From assembly GCA_902799905.1 (NCBI GenBank), contig CADCCB010000034.1, forward strand, positions 1 to 34,650: a stretch of 34,650 nucleotides of DNA, given 5' to 3'. The first letter of the stretch is position 1. The number at the start of each line of letters is the position of its first letter. Under the pieces are notes generated by a model that saw only the letters and a list, made by a program, of their open reading frames with translations, was not told where the DNA came from and did no database searches. The DNA comes from an uncultured Prevotellaceae bacterium (lineage in GTDB: Bacteria > Bacteroidota > Bacteroidia > Bacteroidales > Bacteroidaceae). Of this stretch, positions 676-23,289 are shown in pieces. The position numbers were made by a program, and so were the translations under genes.

Positions 676-780
676 CGAAGAAAAAACCGAGATGGTGCAC
701 AAATGTGACACAAAATGAAAAGAAAGTGAAACATTCCTGAAAAACTGTTGACGAACAGAAAAACCCTGTTGACAAATAAA

Positions 781-812
781 AACGCCTCGCACGTATTTAT
801 TGTGTAATTTTG
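781..812 (+). promoter_or_regulatory. Candidate promoter of the fasciclin/SusCD operon
   Basis: A -7 box TAATTTTG at 805-812 is followed by CATCG, and AACGC at 781-785 lies exactly 19 bases upstream of the box. No TTTG is present at the -33 position. The same layout occurs before 19030, 19450 and 29907. The predicted transcript would begin near 817, giving a leader of about 55 nt before the ATG at 871. Confidence 0.5.
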
Positions 813-870
813 CATCGTCAAAATGTGCAGATAAAAGCAAAACCAAATATTATCAAAATCTCAAACAAGT

Positions 871-17400: not shown

Positions 17401-18939
17401 ATGATGAAACGATTACTATCAGTGGTATCGGCAGCCTGTCTGGTCACAGCCATGCAGGCCGCTTCTATAACAGTCACTATCAGCAATACCCGCCATCAGA
17501 CTATCACTGGCTTCGGTGCTGCCTGCTGTGATGGTGCCATGTGTCCTTATGGCAGTGATACGCAACCTGTGAAACTGCTCTACGGCAAGGAGTCAGTCAT
17601 CGGCTTGAATATCATGCGTATGGAGATTTCGCCAAACTTCAAGGGTAACATAACGACCCCCTGGGATACCCCTTACGATTGGTTTGGCTCTACGCCCAGT
17701 GCCAGGATTGTCAAAGAGCGTGGCGGTATTGTCTTTGGTACCCCTTGGTCGCCTCCAGGTGACTACAAGACCAATGGTATTGCCGGTGGCGGCAACTCCG
17801 AGGAACAGGGCTATAAGCGGGGTGAGTTGCGTAGCGACTGCTATGATGACTTCTTCCCGTGGATCAACACCTTCTTGTCTTATATGCAATTGCAGAATGT
17901 GAATGTCGATGCCGTGTCTGTTCAGAACGAGCCTGACTGGTGGGTCAATTATTCTGGTTGTCTCTATACCCCAGAACAACAGGTTAATCTGGTCAAGAAC
18001 TATGCCCATATCCTCGATCGCAAAAAATTCAAAGGCGTGCGTCTGATCAGTGCCGAGCCTTTGGGTTTTAACCCCAGTTATTCTGATGCGCTGATGAACG
18101 ATCCTACGGCTCGCGAACAGATTGACATCGTGGCAGGTCATATCTATGGCCATCCCGCTCATGGCGATCTAAAGAAGTCTGCCGTGTTGGCCAACAAGTA
18201 CGGCAAGGAAATCTGGATGACAGAACACTCTTCGACCGATCATATCGACCACCTGCCTAACTGGCATGAGCAACTGCTCTTTGCCGAGGAACTCAACGAG
18301 TGTATGACTGCTGGCTGCACGGGCTATATCTATTGGTATATGCGTGCACACTGGGCATTCGTCGGTACGGGCGAGGCCAAATATAATCCGGGCAACACCA
18401 AAAACACATTGCTGCCTCGTGCCTATGTCATGTCGCATTTCTCGAAAAATGTCACCGGTTCCACCCGCTTAGGGCTGACGTCGAGCGTCAAGCAGGCTGG
18501 TGATGCAGGTGCTCCTGTGACAGAAACGGCCTTCGAGGCTTCTGCCTATATTAAGGGCGATTCGCTCATCGTCATGGTCATCGACACAACGAAGAATGCC
18601 CTCGACCTGAAACTTAACTTGCCCTATATGGTGAAGAGCGGCACCCATCTGCTGTCCACTGGTAATGAGCCGGAAAACCGCTGCCAGTTGAGCGACCTCG
18701 ACATCACTACTCCTGTCAACGAAGTTATGGTGCCACTGCCTGCCCGTAGTCTCAATACCTATGTATTTATGATAGACTGGGATGCCACTGGAATTGCTAC
18801 TGTCGAGCAAAAAGAGGCGCGTGGCACTACTCAAACAACCTACTATGATCTGCATGGACGTCGTTTGCAGCAACCCATTCAGGGCTTCTATATCGAAAAA
18901 GGCCCCGAGGGTATCAAAAAACGCTATAATTCCTTGTAA
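17401..18939 (+). CDS. GH30-family glycosidase, probable endo-xylanase
   Basis: The 512-residue product has a Sec signal peptide (about residues 1-20, cleavage MQA/A) and no lipobox. The TIM-barrel and side beta-domain of GH30 are recognisable. TITGFGAACC opens strand 1. VDAVSVQNEPDWWV contains the acid/base Glu177. WMTEHSS contains the nucleophile Glu275. YWYMRAHWAF follows, with Arg315 in the loop where subfamily-8 glucuronoxylanases carry an Arg-Arg pair for the uronic acid branch. Only one Arg is kept here, so glucuronate dependence is doubtful. The wording YVMSHFSKNV and the C-terminal beta-strands also fit GH30. The protein ends in a short tail (YYDLHGRRLQQPIQGFYI) like those on the other secreted proteins of the locus. 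The annotated start MMK is supported by the signal peptide; the second Met is equally possible. Endo-xylanase activity is inferred from family. Confidence 0.9.
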   Translation: MMKRLLSVVSAACLVTAMQAASITVTISNTRHQTITGFGAACCDGAMCPYGSDTQPVKLLYGKESVIGLNIMRMEISPNFKGNITTPWDTPYDWFGSTPSARIVKERGGIVFGTPWSPPGDYKTNGIAGGGNSEEQGYKRGELRSDCYDDFFPWINTFLSYMQLQNVNVDAVSVQNEPDWWVNYSGCLYTPEQQVNLVKNYAHILDRKKFKGVRLISAEPLGFNPSYSDALMNDPTAREQIDIVAGHIYGHPAHGDLKKSAVLANKYGKEIWMTEHSSTDHIDHLPNWHEQLLFAEELNECMTAGCTGYIYWYMRAHWAFVGTGEAKYNPGNTKNTLLPRAYVMSHFSKNVTGSTRLGLTSSVKQAGDAGAPVTETAFEASAYIKGDSLIVMVIDTTKNALDLKLNLPYMVKSGTHLLSTGNEPENRCQLSDLDITTPVNEVMVPLPARSLNTYVFMIDWDATGIATVEQKEARGTTQTTYYDLHGRRLQQPIQGFYIEKGPEGIKKRYNSL

Positions 18940-18993
18940 ATTTGATTCATTTTCACGGTAAATGTGAAATCTAAAGGTAAAGAAACAAATAAT

Positions 18994-19025
18994 AAAGCCC
19001 GTTTCATCGTAAAGTCTTATTTTTG
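18994..19025 (+). promoter_or_regulatory. Promoter copy 1 (before the candidate small RNA)
   Basis: AAAGC at 18994-18998, 19 bases, then TATTTTTG at 19018-19025 followed by CATCGTGATTTTG. Upstream lies AACAAATAATAAAGCCC. The block is nearly repeated at 19353-19384. No coding sequence follows before the terminator at 19161-19203. Confidence 0.5.
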
Positions 19026-19029
19026 CATC

Positions 19030-19203
19030 GTGATTTTGGACAAGAACTAGATTGTTAGTAATAAAAGTAGTTTGTAGTAGTTTCCTTCGTAAGAAAGGTA
19101 AATAGTTAGTAGTTGATTTTATTTTTTGTAGTAGAGTTAGTTATAGTACAAAATTCTATGGAGCGACCACCCGTATGTGAAATATAGGTGGCCGTTCTTT
19201 TTT
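19030..19203 (+). ncRNA. Candidate ~170-nt small RNA
   Basis: It is bounded by a promoter-like block ending at 19025 and an intrinsic terminator at 19161-19203. No start codon with a meaningful reading frame lies between. The body is rich in TAGTAG/TTAGTAG repeats and has a small hairpin around TTCCTTCGTAAGAAAGG. It lies on the same strand as its neighbours, between the GH30 gene and a gene with its own copy of the promoter. It could be an independent PUL small RNA or a 3'-processed or attenuated leader. No known RNA family is recognised. The 510-base gap 18940-19449 holds only this candidate and the two promoters. Confidence 0.4.
19161..19203 (+). terminator. Intrinsic terminator
   Basis: GAGCGACCACC (19161-19171) pairs with GGTGGCCGTTC (19187-19197) in an 11-bp stem with one A/C mismatch and one G/U pair. 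It is followed at once by TTTTTT (19198-19203). It separates the small-RNA candidate from the next promoter. Confidence 0.7.
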
Positions 19204-19352
19204 GGACAAATTATTTGCAGATTCCTTTTTGTTTTGTAACTTGTAGGAAATAAAATGCTGACTGTAGAATAATGCCTGTTGTGTCAAATTTTGCGGTAAA
19301 AAGCCCAAAAATACGGTTTGTAACGAAAACGAAATGTTATGAAACAAACAAT

Positions 19353-19384
19353 AAAGCCCTTTTGCGCAAAGGATTTTATCTTTG
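19353..19384 (+). promoter_or_regulatory. Promoter copy 2 (for the 1279-residue protein)
   Basis: AAAGC at 19353-19357, 19 bases, then TATCTTTG at 19377-19384 followed by CACCGTGATTTTG. Upstream lies AACAAACAATAAAGCCC. Very similar to the block at 18994-19025. The predicted start near 19389 gives a leader of about 60 nt before the ATG at 19450. Confidence 0.55.
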
Positions 19385-19449
19385 CACCGTGATTTTGTGG
19401 AATCAACGATTTATTAATCAATATTATTAAATTATTAACTAAAAACATT

Positions 19450-22400
19450 ATGCACATGAGAAGAATTTTCCGCATGTATGTTGCTCTGGCATTGGTAATG
19501 CTGGGCGCAATGAACGTGAGTGCACAAGACCGTATTCCATTTGATGCGGAGCATTTTACGTTTAACGACTACACAGGGTGGGACAATGACGCCGTTGAGA
19601 TAGGTCCCAATGGCGGTTCAAACTTCCTGCTGAACGAGGCTAGTGGCTGCCCCATTGGCGACACTAACTGTAATGCTTGGGTAAATCTTAGTGGTTACTC
19701 TAAGATGTATATCAAGATGGCCGGATGTGATGGTGATGGTGCACTCAATGGTTCCAATCCTCGTATCTTCATCAATCGCACGGTCGATAATGGCCAGTTT
19801 AATGCCGACAGGAGCCAGGCAAAGTGCCTTGTCATTCCTAATGCAGGAACATGGGCTGAGACATACTATACCAAGGAGGACGATGATACGTATGTCATTG
19901 ATTTGGCTAAGATTGCCAAAGACTTCGGCTTCGTTCACTTCCACTCCATCAAGGGGTCGGCTTGGAATACTAAGGCTATTGTGTATAACATTGAGGTGGA
20001 GAAGGGTGCTGCTGTAGGCTGGACAAGTCTGGTCAACAATGGTAGTTTAGAGGGTAGCGATGTGTCGAACTACTTCGTTTCTCTCGATGCCACCAATAAT
20101 GAAGGCTATCAGCCTGCTGAAATTACCGATGGCGCCGGAGTTGATGGCAGCCGTGGTATCATGGTTACCTCACTGGATAATCCTAAGGAGTCGTGGGCTA
20201 CCCAGTTCTTTATCCGTCTGAATGAGCCTTTGGCTGAAGGCACGCCTTGGCGTATCTCCTTCGACATGAAGGCCGACCACACCGCTGCATGGGGTGGTGG
20301 TATCCACAAAGAGCCTCGTAACTGGATGGGAGGTGCTCTGTTCCCTGCAACACCTGACTTCACCACAGAGTTCTATACTTATACTGCAGAAGGTACTATA
20401 AGTGCTGATCAGGCTGGTATGCAGAGCATCGCTTTCGACTTGAACAATGACACACAGGCCAATAACTATTATTTCGATAACATCAAGTTCGAAGTTTACA
20501 AGTATGGTACGATTGTTGGCTTCTCTCAAGACATCTTGCTGGTTGATTTCGGCTTTGAAACGAATTTGGCTGAACTGGTAAAGAAGTCGGGTAAGACACG
20601 TTTGATATTCCCTTCAGACTGCGCTGCCGTCAAGGTGAATGGTACGAATGTTGAACTTTATTCTATTGAGGCTTATGCTGATGGTCGTTTCTATATCTTT
20701 ACGGTGGAACCCATTGAAGAGACTGACGAGGTGCTTGTTTCGTTTACAAACCCCACTGACCCCAACTTCCATTTGCTTTACACTTCAGAATCTGTAAAAG
20801 GACAGACCGTCAAGGACTTTGCTGATCTTGAGGCTACCTATGATTCAGAGGTAGAGGCTGATGATGCTTATCCTTATATTATGGCTACGCCTATTCTGGT
20901 TGCTGCCAATCCTGAGGATGGCTCGTTCAACTTGCCCAACAGCATTAAGGAGTTCAAACTGACCTTCGATAAGAATGTAGATTGCGCAGCCCTTGTCGCA
21001 ACGCTCAATGGTGAGGCTTTGGACATCACGCCTAACACCAACTTCGCGACAGAGTTTACTTTGACCCGTAAGGGCACCAATGATCTTGCTACAGGAGCCT
21101 ATACCATTAATGTGACAAAGATTTATCCGGAAATTAGACTTGCCGATGAGGTCTTCGGTGACACCACCTATACGTTCAACGTGGGTAAGGTTGAACTGGA
21201 TCCTACGGATGTAGAGGAAACTGTGATGACTGATGACTTCGCAGCAAGTGGTGCTTCATGGATTGTGAATGCTGATGCAGGTGGTATGCAGGATGCCAAC
21301 TCTGGTGCTGGTTGCCGTCTGATGCATGGCCGGAATACGGCGTTTGTTCCCGACCTGCTCTATTTGTGTCAGCGCGGTACGCCTGCTGAACAGGGTGGTG
21401 TTGCCCTGTATGGCACGAAGGATGATGCTAAGTTGACCCTGAAAGCAAAGAATTATCATCTGACGCTCGGTGCTAGCCAGTGGGACCGTGACGATGCCCG
21501 TACTCTGAGAGTGCAGGTGCTCCCTGAGAATGCAGTCGACTTCACTAATGGTGCCATTCTCGATGAAAGCCAGATCTTGGCTGAAGACTTCAAAGCTATT
21601 GAGCCTAAGTTGGAGTCTGGTAAGGCTGTTCGTTTCGATCTCTTGATTCCCGTGAAGGTAGAGGGCAACTATATCATCCGTCTCGTTCCTGGAAATGCTG
21701 CCGGTCAGCCCAACGGATTTGCCGATGGTTGTGCTATTGGCGACATCAAGGTTCAGTATTTGCCCAATACTCCTGGTGCAGAATGGATCCGTCTGCTTGA
21801 TGCAGCACTGAAAGATGCTATTGCTATGCGCGACAAGTTTGCTGGTGAGCGCTATGAAGGTGAGACTCAGACCGCTCAGAGTACAGCCATTGAGAAGTAT
21901 CAGATTGAGAAAGAGAATTATACCAATCCTACTGCTTATCAGAATGCCGCTGATGATTTGAAGGCTTTGACTGCTGCTTTGGAAGCCTTTGCTAATCAGT
22001 GCAATAAGTATGATGAACTGATTAAGAAGGGTGTCGATGTCATTCGTCAGACTTCTGCCGAAGAGGATAACGGCAAACCCAACCAGAAGCGTAAGTTCAT
22101 GGGAACAGAGTTGTTCGCTCAACTGACTGATGTCGTTGCCAAGTATCATGGCTCTTCTGAGTGGAAGGATGTGGCTAACCATGAAGGTGAGGATCCCGAG
22201 AATCCAGTTGAGGCACAGTGGCAGTTGTTCTATGAGTATGATGTGCTGAAGGACGCAACGGCTCTGGAGACTGCAATCTCTGAACTGGATAACATCGTCA
22301 ATGAGACTTCGAAGTTGTTCACCGTTGGCAAGCCGAGCATGACAACTACAGGTGTTGCAGCACTGGTTGAGCGTCAGCGTCTGGGTGCAGAAGCACTGAA

Positions 22401-23289
22401 GTCATTAGGTGTTGCTGAAGATGACGAACTTGTGGTCAGCGCCTTGAATGCTTTGACTGATGACGATGCCTTGTCCGAGAGACTGAAGATTCGTTTGACT
22501 GGGATTATCTACGGTCAGTTGCAGGATCCTGACAACAAGTTGTTTGAGGGTGTCACGAATGATCAACTGGAAGTGATTACTCCTACCTATGACATGACTG
22601 CATTTGTGAAGAATCCGAACGCCTATGCACTGGCTTATTCAAGCGAGATCCCCGGTTGGGAGAAGATTACGGGTAACGCTAAGTCGTGGAGCAGTTGGGA
22701 TGGCAATGTTTCTCACAACGATCAGACTCCTTATATCGAGGATTGCGCATTGCATCCAGGTTGGCACGCTGTTGCCAGTGTCGAGCAGACCATTAGCGAC
22801 CTGCCTGCAGGTGTCTATACTATCCAGTTCCGTGCTAATGACAATAGCGCAACCTCTGACGGTACTTACGCTTATGTGAAGACTACAGAGACACCTGCTG
22901 TTGAGGATGGCGCAGAGTTTGACAAGGATCTCAATCTGGCTGGTTATGCTGATGTCAACAACTCTGGATGGGATCGTGAAATCACCAATATCACTGTTAC
23001 TGATGGCATTCTTACCCTCGGCTTTGCATGGGGTCCTGAATCTCAGGCCTTCTTCGATGAGGTTCACATCTTGCTGACAGGTCCTGCTGATGTTGACTAC
23101 AAGCAGCGTAATAAAGAGCACGAAGATACCGGCGTTGAGGCCCTCGCGGCTCAGCCTGCCAATGCTTGTGCTATCGAACTCTATACTTTGGATGGTCGTC
23201 GCATCTCGAACGCTCGTCAGGGCATCGTAATCGTGAAGAAGATCATGAACGACGGTACTGTTCGTACTGAAAAGGTTATTCGCAAATAA
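19450..23289 (+). CDS. Large secreted multidomain, probably glycan-binding protein
   Basis: The 1279-residue product has a Sec signal peptide (cleavage VSA/Q, about residue 25) and no lipobox; the ATG at 19450 and the Met two codons later are both possible starts. Visible parts: a beta-rich N-terminal domain (27-180); a module like the CBM4/9/22 group (about 190-350, ending NNYYFDNIKFEV); a linking beta domain (350-470); a bacterial Ig-like domain of the SbsA type (about 475-580, IMATPILVAANPEDGSF to TTYTFNVGK); another beta-sandwich (590-772); a long helical region (about 777-1035) with coiled-coil-like repeats; a C-terminal beta-sandwich (about 1060-1217); and a tail LYTLDGRRISNARQGIVIV. 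No glycosidase active site is recognised. Its own promoter, its place among xylan-active enzymes and its CBM-like modules suggest a secreted or surface-attached glycan-binding scaffold. That role is inference; an unknown catalytic domain cannot be excluded. Confidence 0.8.
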   Translation: MHMRRIFRMYVALALVMLGAMNVSAQDRIPFDAEHFTFNDYTGWDNDAVEIGPNGGSNFLLNEASGCPIGDTNCNAWVNLSGYSKMYIKMAGCDGDGALNGSNPRIFINRTVDNGQFNADRSQAKCLVIPNAGTWAETYYTKEDDDTYVIDLAKIAKDFGFVHFHSIKGSAWNTKAIVYNIEVEKGAAVGWTSLVNNGSLEGSDVSNYFVSLDATNNEGYQPAEITDGAGVDGSRGIMVTSLDNPKESWATQFFIRLNEPLAEGTPWRISFDMKADHTAAWGGGIHKEPRNWMGGALFPATPDFTTEFYTYTAEGTISADQAGMQSIAFDLNNDTQANNYYFDNIKFEVYKYGTIVGFSQDILLVDFGFETNLAELVKKSGKTRLIFPSDCAAVKVNGTNVELYSIEAYADGRFYIFTVEPIEETDEVLVSFTNPTDPNFHLLYTSESVKGQTVKDFADLEATYDSEVEADDAYPYIMATPILVAANPEDGSFNLPNSIKEFKLTFDKNVDCAALVATLNGEALDITPNTNFATEFTLTRKGTNDLATGAYTINVTKIYPEIRLADEVFGDTTYTFNVGKVELDPTDVEETVMTDDFAASGASWIVNADAGGMQDANSGAGCRLMHGRNTAFVPDLLYLCQRGTPAEQGGVALYGTKDDAKLTLKAKNYHLTLGASQWDRDDARTLRVQVLPENAVDFTNGAILDESQILAEDFKAIEPKLESGKAVRFDLLIPVKVEGNYIIRLVPGNAAGQPNGFADGCAIGDIKVQYLPNTPGAEWIRLLDAALKDAIAMRDKFAGERYEGETQTAQSTAIEKYQIEKENYTNPTAYQNAADDLKALTAALEAFANQCNKYDELIKKGVDVIRQTSAEEDNGKPNQKRKFMGTELFAQLTDVVAKYHGSSEWKDVANHEGEDPENPVEAQWQLFYEYDVLKDATALETAISELDNIVNETSKLFTVGKPSMTTTGVAALVERQRLGAEALKSLGVAEDDELVVSALNALTDDDALSERLKIRLTGIIYGQLQDPDNKLFEGVTNDQLEVITPTYDMTAFVKNPNAYALAYSSEIPGWEKITGNAKSWSSWDGNVSHNDQTPYIEDCALHPGWHAVASVEQTISDLPAGVYTIQFRANDNSATSDGTYAYVKTTETPAVEDGAEFDKDLNLAGYADVNNSGWDREITNITVTDGILTLGFAWGPESQAFFDEVHILLTGPADVDYKQRNKEHEDTGVEALAAQPANACAIELYTLDGRRISNARQGIVIVKKIMNDGTVRTEKVIRK

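Follow-up and report, generated by a model that had tools for sequence, protein, structure and literature searches.

The 34,650-nucleotide window analyzed here corresponds to contig C34 in the 3.42 Mb genome of an uncultured Prevotellaceae bacterium. It contains a PUL of the xylan type, in which susC/susD pairs occur in tandem, as well as GH30/GH59-, GH10-, and GH98-like genes. Between the end of the GH30-like gene at 18939 and a large gene starting at 19450 lie two promoters with a common box, and between these promoters lies a body with a hairpin and a T-run. We interpret this body as the putative orphan copy of a small RNA (sRNA) that in most relatives is followed by the gene of a hybrid two-component sensor-regulator (HTCS). 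The features of the region are as follows:

17401-18939, + strand: GH30/GH59-like glycosidase gene directly 5' of the sRNA (Pfam: GH59 best, GH30 also above cut-off; NCBIfam: XynC-like, below cut-off)
18982-19026, + strand: predicted sRNA promoter with the common control box GAAACAAAT at 18982 and the -7 box TATTTTTGC at 19018-19026
19031-19203, + strand: predicted sRNA body, orphan copy, with the 5' end placed from the -7 box (to about +/-5 nt)
19103-19114, + strand: UAGUUAGUAGUU element
19127-19137, + strand: UGUAGUAGAGU, the window sRNA's best match to the HTCS leader on contig C32
19131-19159, + strand: antisense stem-loop, window form GUAGAGUU[AGUUAUAGUACAA]AAUUCUAU, whose loop region is complementary to HTCS leaders in relatives
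19161-19203, + strand: terminator hairpin with the conserved apical GUAUGUGAAAUAU, then a T-run
19205-19245, + strand: decayed HTCS promoter, likely a scar, with TAACTTGTA where a relative has TAACTTTGC
19341-19385, + strand: second promoter, for gene 19450, with the same box (GAAAC at 19341) and the -7 box TATCTTTGC at 19377-19385
19450-23289, + strand: gene of a large protein (1279 aa), the first gene after the second promoter

A first-pass annotation of this DNA had described near-identical promoter blocks about 360 bases apart. Both promoters are real and 359 nt apart, but they are similar rather than near-identical, forming a direct repeat (18966-19038 and 19325-19397) with 75% identity over 73 nt. 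Each contains what we take to be a Bacteroidota-type -7 box, and GAAACAAA is found exactly 36 nt 5' of this box in both blocks (at 18982 and 19341). A box like that of the sRNA promoter, AAAATGAAAAGAAAGTGAAACAT, was also seen by eye in window 712-813, where it lies 77 nt 5' of a -7 box at 805 that serves the first PUL operon. The hairpin and T-run at 19161-19203, previously read as a classical terminator, hold up as well, given that the covariance model of the RNA family (R1) ends there (match 19100-19203, E 8.2e-18). A simple terminator scan of the window did not list this hairpin, presumably because its stem is interrupted near the loop. The body had further been called rich in TAGTAG repeats, and UAG is indeed enriched (12 occurrences versus 8.1 expected, reached by 1.7% of 2000 dinucleotide shuffles), though the repeats are explained only in part. 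The same is true of the role of the UAGUUAGUAGUU element, which is well conserved in the family. RRM proteins were considered as readers of the UAG repeats and discarded, with no RRM_1 domain found in any of the 3 genomes searched.

A second copy of the body, which like the scar-like segment at 19205-19245 had escaped the earlier annotation, is present on contig C32 of the same genome (85% identity over 151 nt). Across the genus, some part of the region was matched in 20 of 150 genomes by DNA search, and 69 of 398 genomes gave a match to model R1 at E<=0.01 (56 at E<=1e-4). The body is thus conserved in relatives, a point on which the earlier annotation had made its small-RNA reading depend. 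Covariation, which it had proposed as a check, is apparent in the terminator hairpin: 10 of 16 pairs had changed on both sides in a first alignment of 8 relatives, and 13 of 16 have done so among 68 aligned members (67 distinct), with a covariation score of 0.409, which none of 500 shuffles reached (0.214 shuffled). The alignment was fitted to the hairpin structure and 92.3% of its cells pair, yet sliding the 3' partner by 1-3 columns reduces pairing to 25-43%. Alignment A4 comprises 68 sources and leaves out 5 of the 60 fetched loci (the partial L117 and the weakest ones, L123-L126). The apical GUAUGWGAAUAU (window 19171-19187) is nearly invariant though the stem changes freely, which is more than a plain terminator needs, and a protein or a second RNA may bind it. 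Further upstream, a stem of at least 4 bp around an AUGG, ACGG, or AUAG loop can form in 57 of 62 members (a count without shuffle control), with GUUAGUU[AUGGUAA]AACUAAU as the commonest form of this antisense stem-loop in the family. The RNA measures 106-248 nt by its predicted ends (median 172). A short ORF starting at the conserved AUG seems unlikely by eye: the window carries AUA in its place, and the spacing to the hairpin is variable. The suggested Rfam check came out negative: nothing in the window matched at gathering score, and five sub-threshold matches were to unrelated families (E 4-7.5).

Among named genomes, the RNA pattern was found in 54 stretches (37 repeats of earlier loci, 11 new members, and 6 judged to be chance matches), of which 46 are titled Prevotella or Prevotellaceae; many are ruminant MAGs, and cultured P. 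communis E15-14 is included. An exact pattern was too strict when run against the 398 genomes (3 matches, one of which, L034, lies within a protein gene by eye). The apical-loop pattern, searched in 35 genomes, recovered just two copies in the window's own genome and misses the GAAUAU form, so it is hardly informative on the wider RNA set. A family-wide R1 search gave matches in 19 of 301 genomes at E<=0.01, mostly weak, including 5 of the same genus with the window's genome among them. Outside the genus, L246 (genus g8) alone looks convincing, with a downstream HTCS that is 44% identical. L247 and L251 (genus g30) are likely relatives of the RNA in which the hairpin follows an apparent susD (by eye) and the stretch holds no HTCS match. 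Matches in g21 and g17 (L252, L257, L258, L259, L260, and L261) seem unrelated to the family; these weak R1 matches are a mutually alike intergenic hairpin element behind an apparent HU gene (by eye). The GUAUGUGAAUAUA loop recurs in a hairpin at L124 (G175) that comes with a TAnnTTTGC promoter and lies 5' of a different susC-type locus, with no HTCS match in the fetched stretch.

Of the 60 fetched loci, 45 have the HTCS gene of a xylan-type PUL downstream of the RNA in the same orientation, at a distance of no more than 600 nt. In 4 it lies farther downstream, and the fetched stretch contains none in 11, some of which are cut by contig ends. Within 900 nt upstream and on the same strand, there is a susD gene in 28 of the 60 loci and a GH30-like gene in 5. 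A homolog of gene 19450 is in view in 30 of the 60, and many relatives' loci encode one with 32-45% identity; its product, for which Pfam gave no match at E 0.001 and sub-cut-off matches only at E 0.5, is a candidate uncharacterised PUL component. The HTCS encoded on C32 unites Reg_prop (propeller sensor), HisKA, HATPase_c, Response_reg, and HTH_18 (AraC-type HTH) domains in one chain.

A TAnnTTTGC (-7) box precedes the RNA in 47 of 61 loci and was not found in 14. Two of these 14 begin close to or at the end of a contig, and in several the RNA sits close behind susD (L092, L100, L102, L106, L110, L115, L120, and L121). In the latter loci, processing of the susD message may yield the RNA as a form derived from the susD 3' end. 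The HTCS gene has its own TAnnTTTG box after the sRNA terminator and near the HTCS start in 47 of 49 loci, a few of which were misplaced by our script (inside the gene). GAAAC[AG] is located at exactly -36 in 30 of 47 sRNA promoters and 15 of 26 promoters of gene-19450 homologs versus only 2 of 46 HTCS promoters (counting the window and only the first GAAAC[AG] per promoter). This distribution suggests that the sRNA and PUL promoters are probably under one activator that leaves out the HTCS promoter, and the common box would fit the HTCS itself as activator of the sRNA promoter. Together with the hairpin, the -36 box supports the earlier view of a separate small-RNA gene, as predicted from sequence, with its own promoter and terminator and a control box common with the downstream PUL operon.

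The message opposed by this RNA is probably not that of susC or susD, whose leaders had been named as candidates for pairing. For 17 true susC starts in 17 of the 20 genomes fetched, exact complements of just 6-8 nt were found, which is control level, and the 31 susD leaders are at control level, too (mean 6.8 nt versus 6.3 nt for 201 other genes). The same holds for 32 fasciclin-type starts (5-10 nt), and two susD_15513-like starts gave 6 and 8 nt (leaders of unnamed ORFs came from 20 stretches and were sorted, with 12 ORFs internal or unmatched). The predicted target is instead the mRNA of the PUL's HTCS regulator, the leaders of which often read UUUUACCAUAACUAUG or something near it and are antisense to the conserved sRNA loop UUAGUUAUGGUAAAACUAA.

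An HTCS start was in reach in 57 of 71 loci, 50 of them by script (with G223 and G215 misplaced) and 7 more as well as 2 corrections by hand. Within the script set, 28 of 50 HTCS start regions had an exact complement to the sRNA that was 10-21 nt long, and the exact run was significant against shuffles (p<=0.05) for 29 of 50 start regions. The mean longest exact complement was 10.4 nt for 48 HTCS starts (the 21 nt of G034 being artefactual) compared to the 6.3 nt of the 201 other genes and to 7.6 nt for 32 homologs of gene 19450. With G-U allowed and without gaps, 35 of 56 HTCS leaders reached p<=0.05 (one pair left out because its sRNA is too short). Duplex energy did so for 14 of 50 starts and is weak as a test, possibly owing to the many competing duplexes available to AU-rich RNAs.

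Cognate partners match each other better than exchanged ones. Over the 57 pairs, the mean score was 26.4 for cognate versus 23.8 for swapped combinations (0 of 5000 permutations), and the outcome did not change after thinning to 54, 39, or 33 representatives (again without the pair with the short sRNA); the permutations ignore ancestry, and thinning removes similar pairs only. At G196, 21 nt pair without mismatch up to the HTCS start codon, while P. communis E15-14 has an exact pairing of 13 nt. At G335, the pairing spans 17 bp (G-U allowed), and exchanging either its sRNA or its leader for any of the 56 others gives a poorer match. At G050 and G051, the sRNA loop lacks AUGG and the HTCS leader lacks ACCAU. 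Where the sRNA is present, 32 of 57 HTCS leaders contain TTACCAT versus none of 30 where it is absent (Fisher 1.7e-8), and the shorter ACCAT occurs in 39 of 57 versus 6 of 30; the 30 sRNA-less HTCS genes are the best loci of 80 genomes chosen for having no R1 match and may include some paralogs. An earlier count had found TTACCAT in 22 of 48 HTCS leaders versus 1 of 301 other leaders. Pairing is poor in L163, L129, G129, G297, G157, G050, G250, G289, and G034. Pairing with the regulator's translation start, as in OmrA/B-like feedback sRNAs, is seen by sequence in many relatives and weak in the window's genome. As a separate observation, 6-mers complementary to UAGUUAGUAGUU (19103-19114) occur 5' of -14 in 13 of 57 HTCS leaders (mean 4.9 and maximum 11 in 300 shuffles).

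Given the family with its hairpin, the gene order, the common box, and the co-evolving complementarity to the HTCS start in relatives, we consider it likely that the body in the window represents the orphaned member of a Prevotella sRNA family, and that the sRNA would be co-induced with the PUL and repress translation of the cognate HTCS. In the sRNA promoter and a PUL promoter, the common box is equally far from the -7 element, and induction of the PUL would probably lead to synthesis of the sRNA, most simply via the HTCS. The AUGGUAA loop of the sRNA, presented in a short stem, would then pair with the HTCS start region, often UUUUACCAUAAC-UAUG, as the computed complementarity and co-evolution suggest. 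This pairing would block ribosome access and lower HTCS synthesis, amounting to a delayed negative feedback on the sensor. Five HTCS leaders that we folded have little structure (MFE -1.7 to -4.2), which makes it unlikely that the sRNA works through opening an inhibitory fold; blocking is the simpler mode. We infer transcription of the RNA, its activation by the HTCS, the repression, and the role of the window copy from these patterns. More tentatively, and with slightly less than even confidence, we propose a dedicated, co-evolving sRNA-HTCS module as a post-transcriptional brake in xylan PULs; rearrangement can split the module, such that induction of the window's PUL would damp the sensor on C32.

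In the window itself, the HTCS gene that follows the RNA in most relatives has most likely been lost, as judged from gene order and the promoter-like remnant. The first promoter had been noted to have no gene to serve except a small RNA; this gene-less look arises because the HTCS is missing here, with a promoter-like scar left at 19205-19245. Local alignment of this segment to the HTCS promoter of G297 scores 61 (the best of 1000 shuffles reached 34), and matches to other HTCS promoters are weaker (0 of 1000 shuffles as high for G392, 2 for G129, and 5 for C32). Contig C32 (L067, G000:C32) encodes an HTCS beside the second sRNA copy as well as a GH10 protein with 87% identity to the window's, and the PUL is split or duplicated between C34 and C32. 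The window copy, if it acts at all, would act on this HTCS. The sRNA of C32 and its own HTCS share an exact run of 8 nt (p 0.45; duplex energy p 0.03), and the window sRNA has a weak match of 11 bp, including G-U, at -32 to -22 of the same leader. The brake may be weak, changed, or dying in the window's clade.

These features raise the question of whether the window body is non-functional debris of a deleted HTCS locus, which would be compatible with our main reading of the family. The likely promoter scar, the changed loop letter (AUAG for AUGG), and the weak pairing with the C32 HTCS speak for it, but the window copy retains an intact promoter box, stem-loop, terminator, and apical loop and scores nearly as high with R1 (104.7 bits) as the C32 copy (107.9 bits). 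We regard debris as rather unlikely, with perhaps the most substance among the alternatives. Less plausible is an insulation in cis, in which the antisense element of a read-through transcript would pair with the HTCS start further along and keep the transcript untranslated without any free sRNA acting. In 45 of 60 loci, element and leader do share a strand and are separated by less than 600 nt, but the terminator hairpin is itself under selection, most loci provide the HTCS with a separate promoter behind the terminator, and complementarity persists at distances of 1.1-2.2 kb (13 nt exact at G148, 11 nt exact at G172, and 13 bp with G-U at G324, with just 8 nt at G250).

The main targets of the sRNA could also be other PUL mRNAs, with UAGUUAGUAGUU pairing to AU-rich leaders such as UUAUUAACUA of gene 19450, though we find this improbable. 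UAGUUAGUAGUU is well conserved and has a 12-bp match (G-U allowed) to the leader of gene 19450 in the window, but the match has a p of 0.12, only 5 of 26 gene-19450 leaders in as many genomes reach p<=0.05 versus 35 of 56 HTCS leaders, and susC, susD, and fasciclin-type leaders are at control level. That the matching sequences are sites of one DNA-binding protein rather than RNA pairing partners deserves very little credence. In its favor, the element forms an inverted repeat, and a changing protein could make its sites change together. However, the leader match lies 3' of the HTCS -7 box, in many cases right next to the start codon, and the loop to which it is antisense belongs to a predicted transcribed unit.

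Discussion of HTCS-type PUL regulators usually centers on their role as transcriptional switches. If our reading of repression at the HTCS start is correct, an sRNA dedicated to the start codon of the glycan sensor would give the PUL a built-in brake by which one PUL might even damp the sensor at another locus. Many related genomes, including that of cultured P. communis E15-14, encode the sRNA together with its presumed target in sequences that change in concert, which makes sRNA control of an HTCS directly testable. The open-access literature, represented partly by titles and abstracts, yielded no sRNA for an HTCS in Prevotella, an absence that is not proof. As for a possible attenuator or riboswitch in the HTCS 5' leader, which would share a transcript with the gene, the HTCS box comes after the terminator in 47 of the 49 loci (with the few script misplacements mentioned above).

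The circuit logic resembles that of the enterobacterial sRNAs OmrA and OmrB, which are reported to be activated by a two-component regulator and to pair just 5' of the ompR start codon to lower its expression (PMC10342277). The likeness consists in an sRNA predicted to pair with the start of a two-component regulator, which in our case may also be its activator, the sRNA and PUL promoters having a box in common. OmrA/B differ in working with Hfq and in having several targets, whereas here the sRNA is usually encoded beside its target, a PUL hybrid sensor-regulator. To our knowledge, OmrA/B and the Prevotella sRNA are unrelated in sequence.

The PUL sRNAs known from the literature consulted are DonS-type antisense RNAs, GibS, and FopS. 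One study describes FopS and GibS of B. thetaiotaomicron, together with RbpB, as acting on PUL translation starts, with FopS being around 65-70 nt long, belonging to a 14-member family, targeting susC, and binding the RRM protein RbpB (PMC11697453). Action on PUL translation starts is the common ground, predicted in our case, whereas the Prevotella RNA measures 106-248 nt by predicted ends, is PUL-linked, and does not match susC starts. An RbpB-like RRM partner (PF00076) was found in none of 3 genomes, with a positive control in Bacteroides ihuae. DonS-type RNAs of Bacteroides are reported to be PUL-associated and divergently encoded antisense to susC (PMC7366714, PMC10994844). The Prevotella RNA is likewise a PUL-associated small RNA, but it is sense-oriented between genes and not antisense to susC.

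Roc is an HTCS. In B. thetaiotaomicron, roc is reported to be silenced via its mRNA leader by an unknown agent, three candidate sRNAs having failed (PMC10294740). Both cases would involve post-transcriptional control of a regulator via its leader, as predicted here, with the difference that a candidate sRNA is in hand for Prevotella, in another genus. For S. copri, a further study reports a xylan-PUL HTCS that is constitutively expressed while the PUL is induced (PMC11784079), and sRNA control of the kind proposed may bear on this pattern. The closest link of our analysis to known work is the control of roc through its leader.
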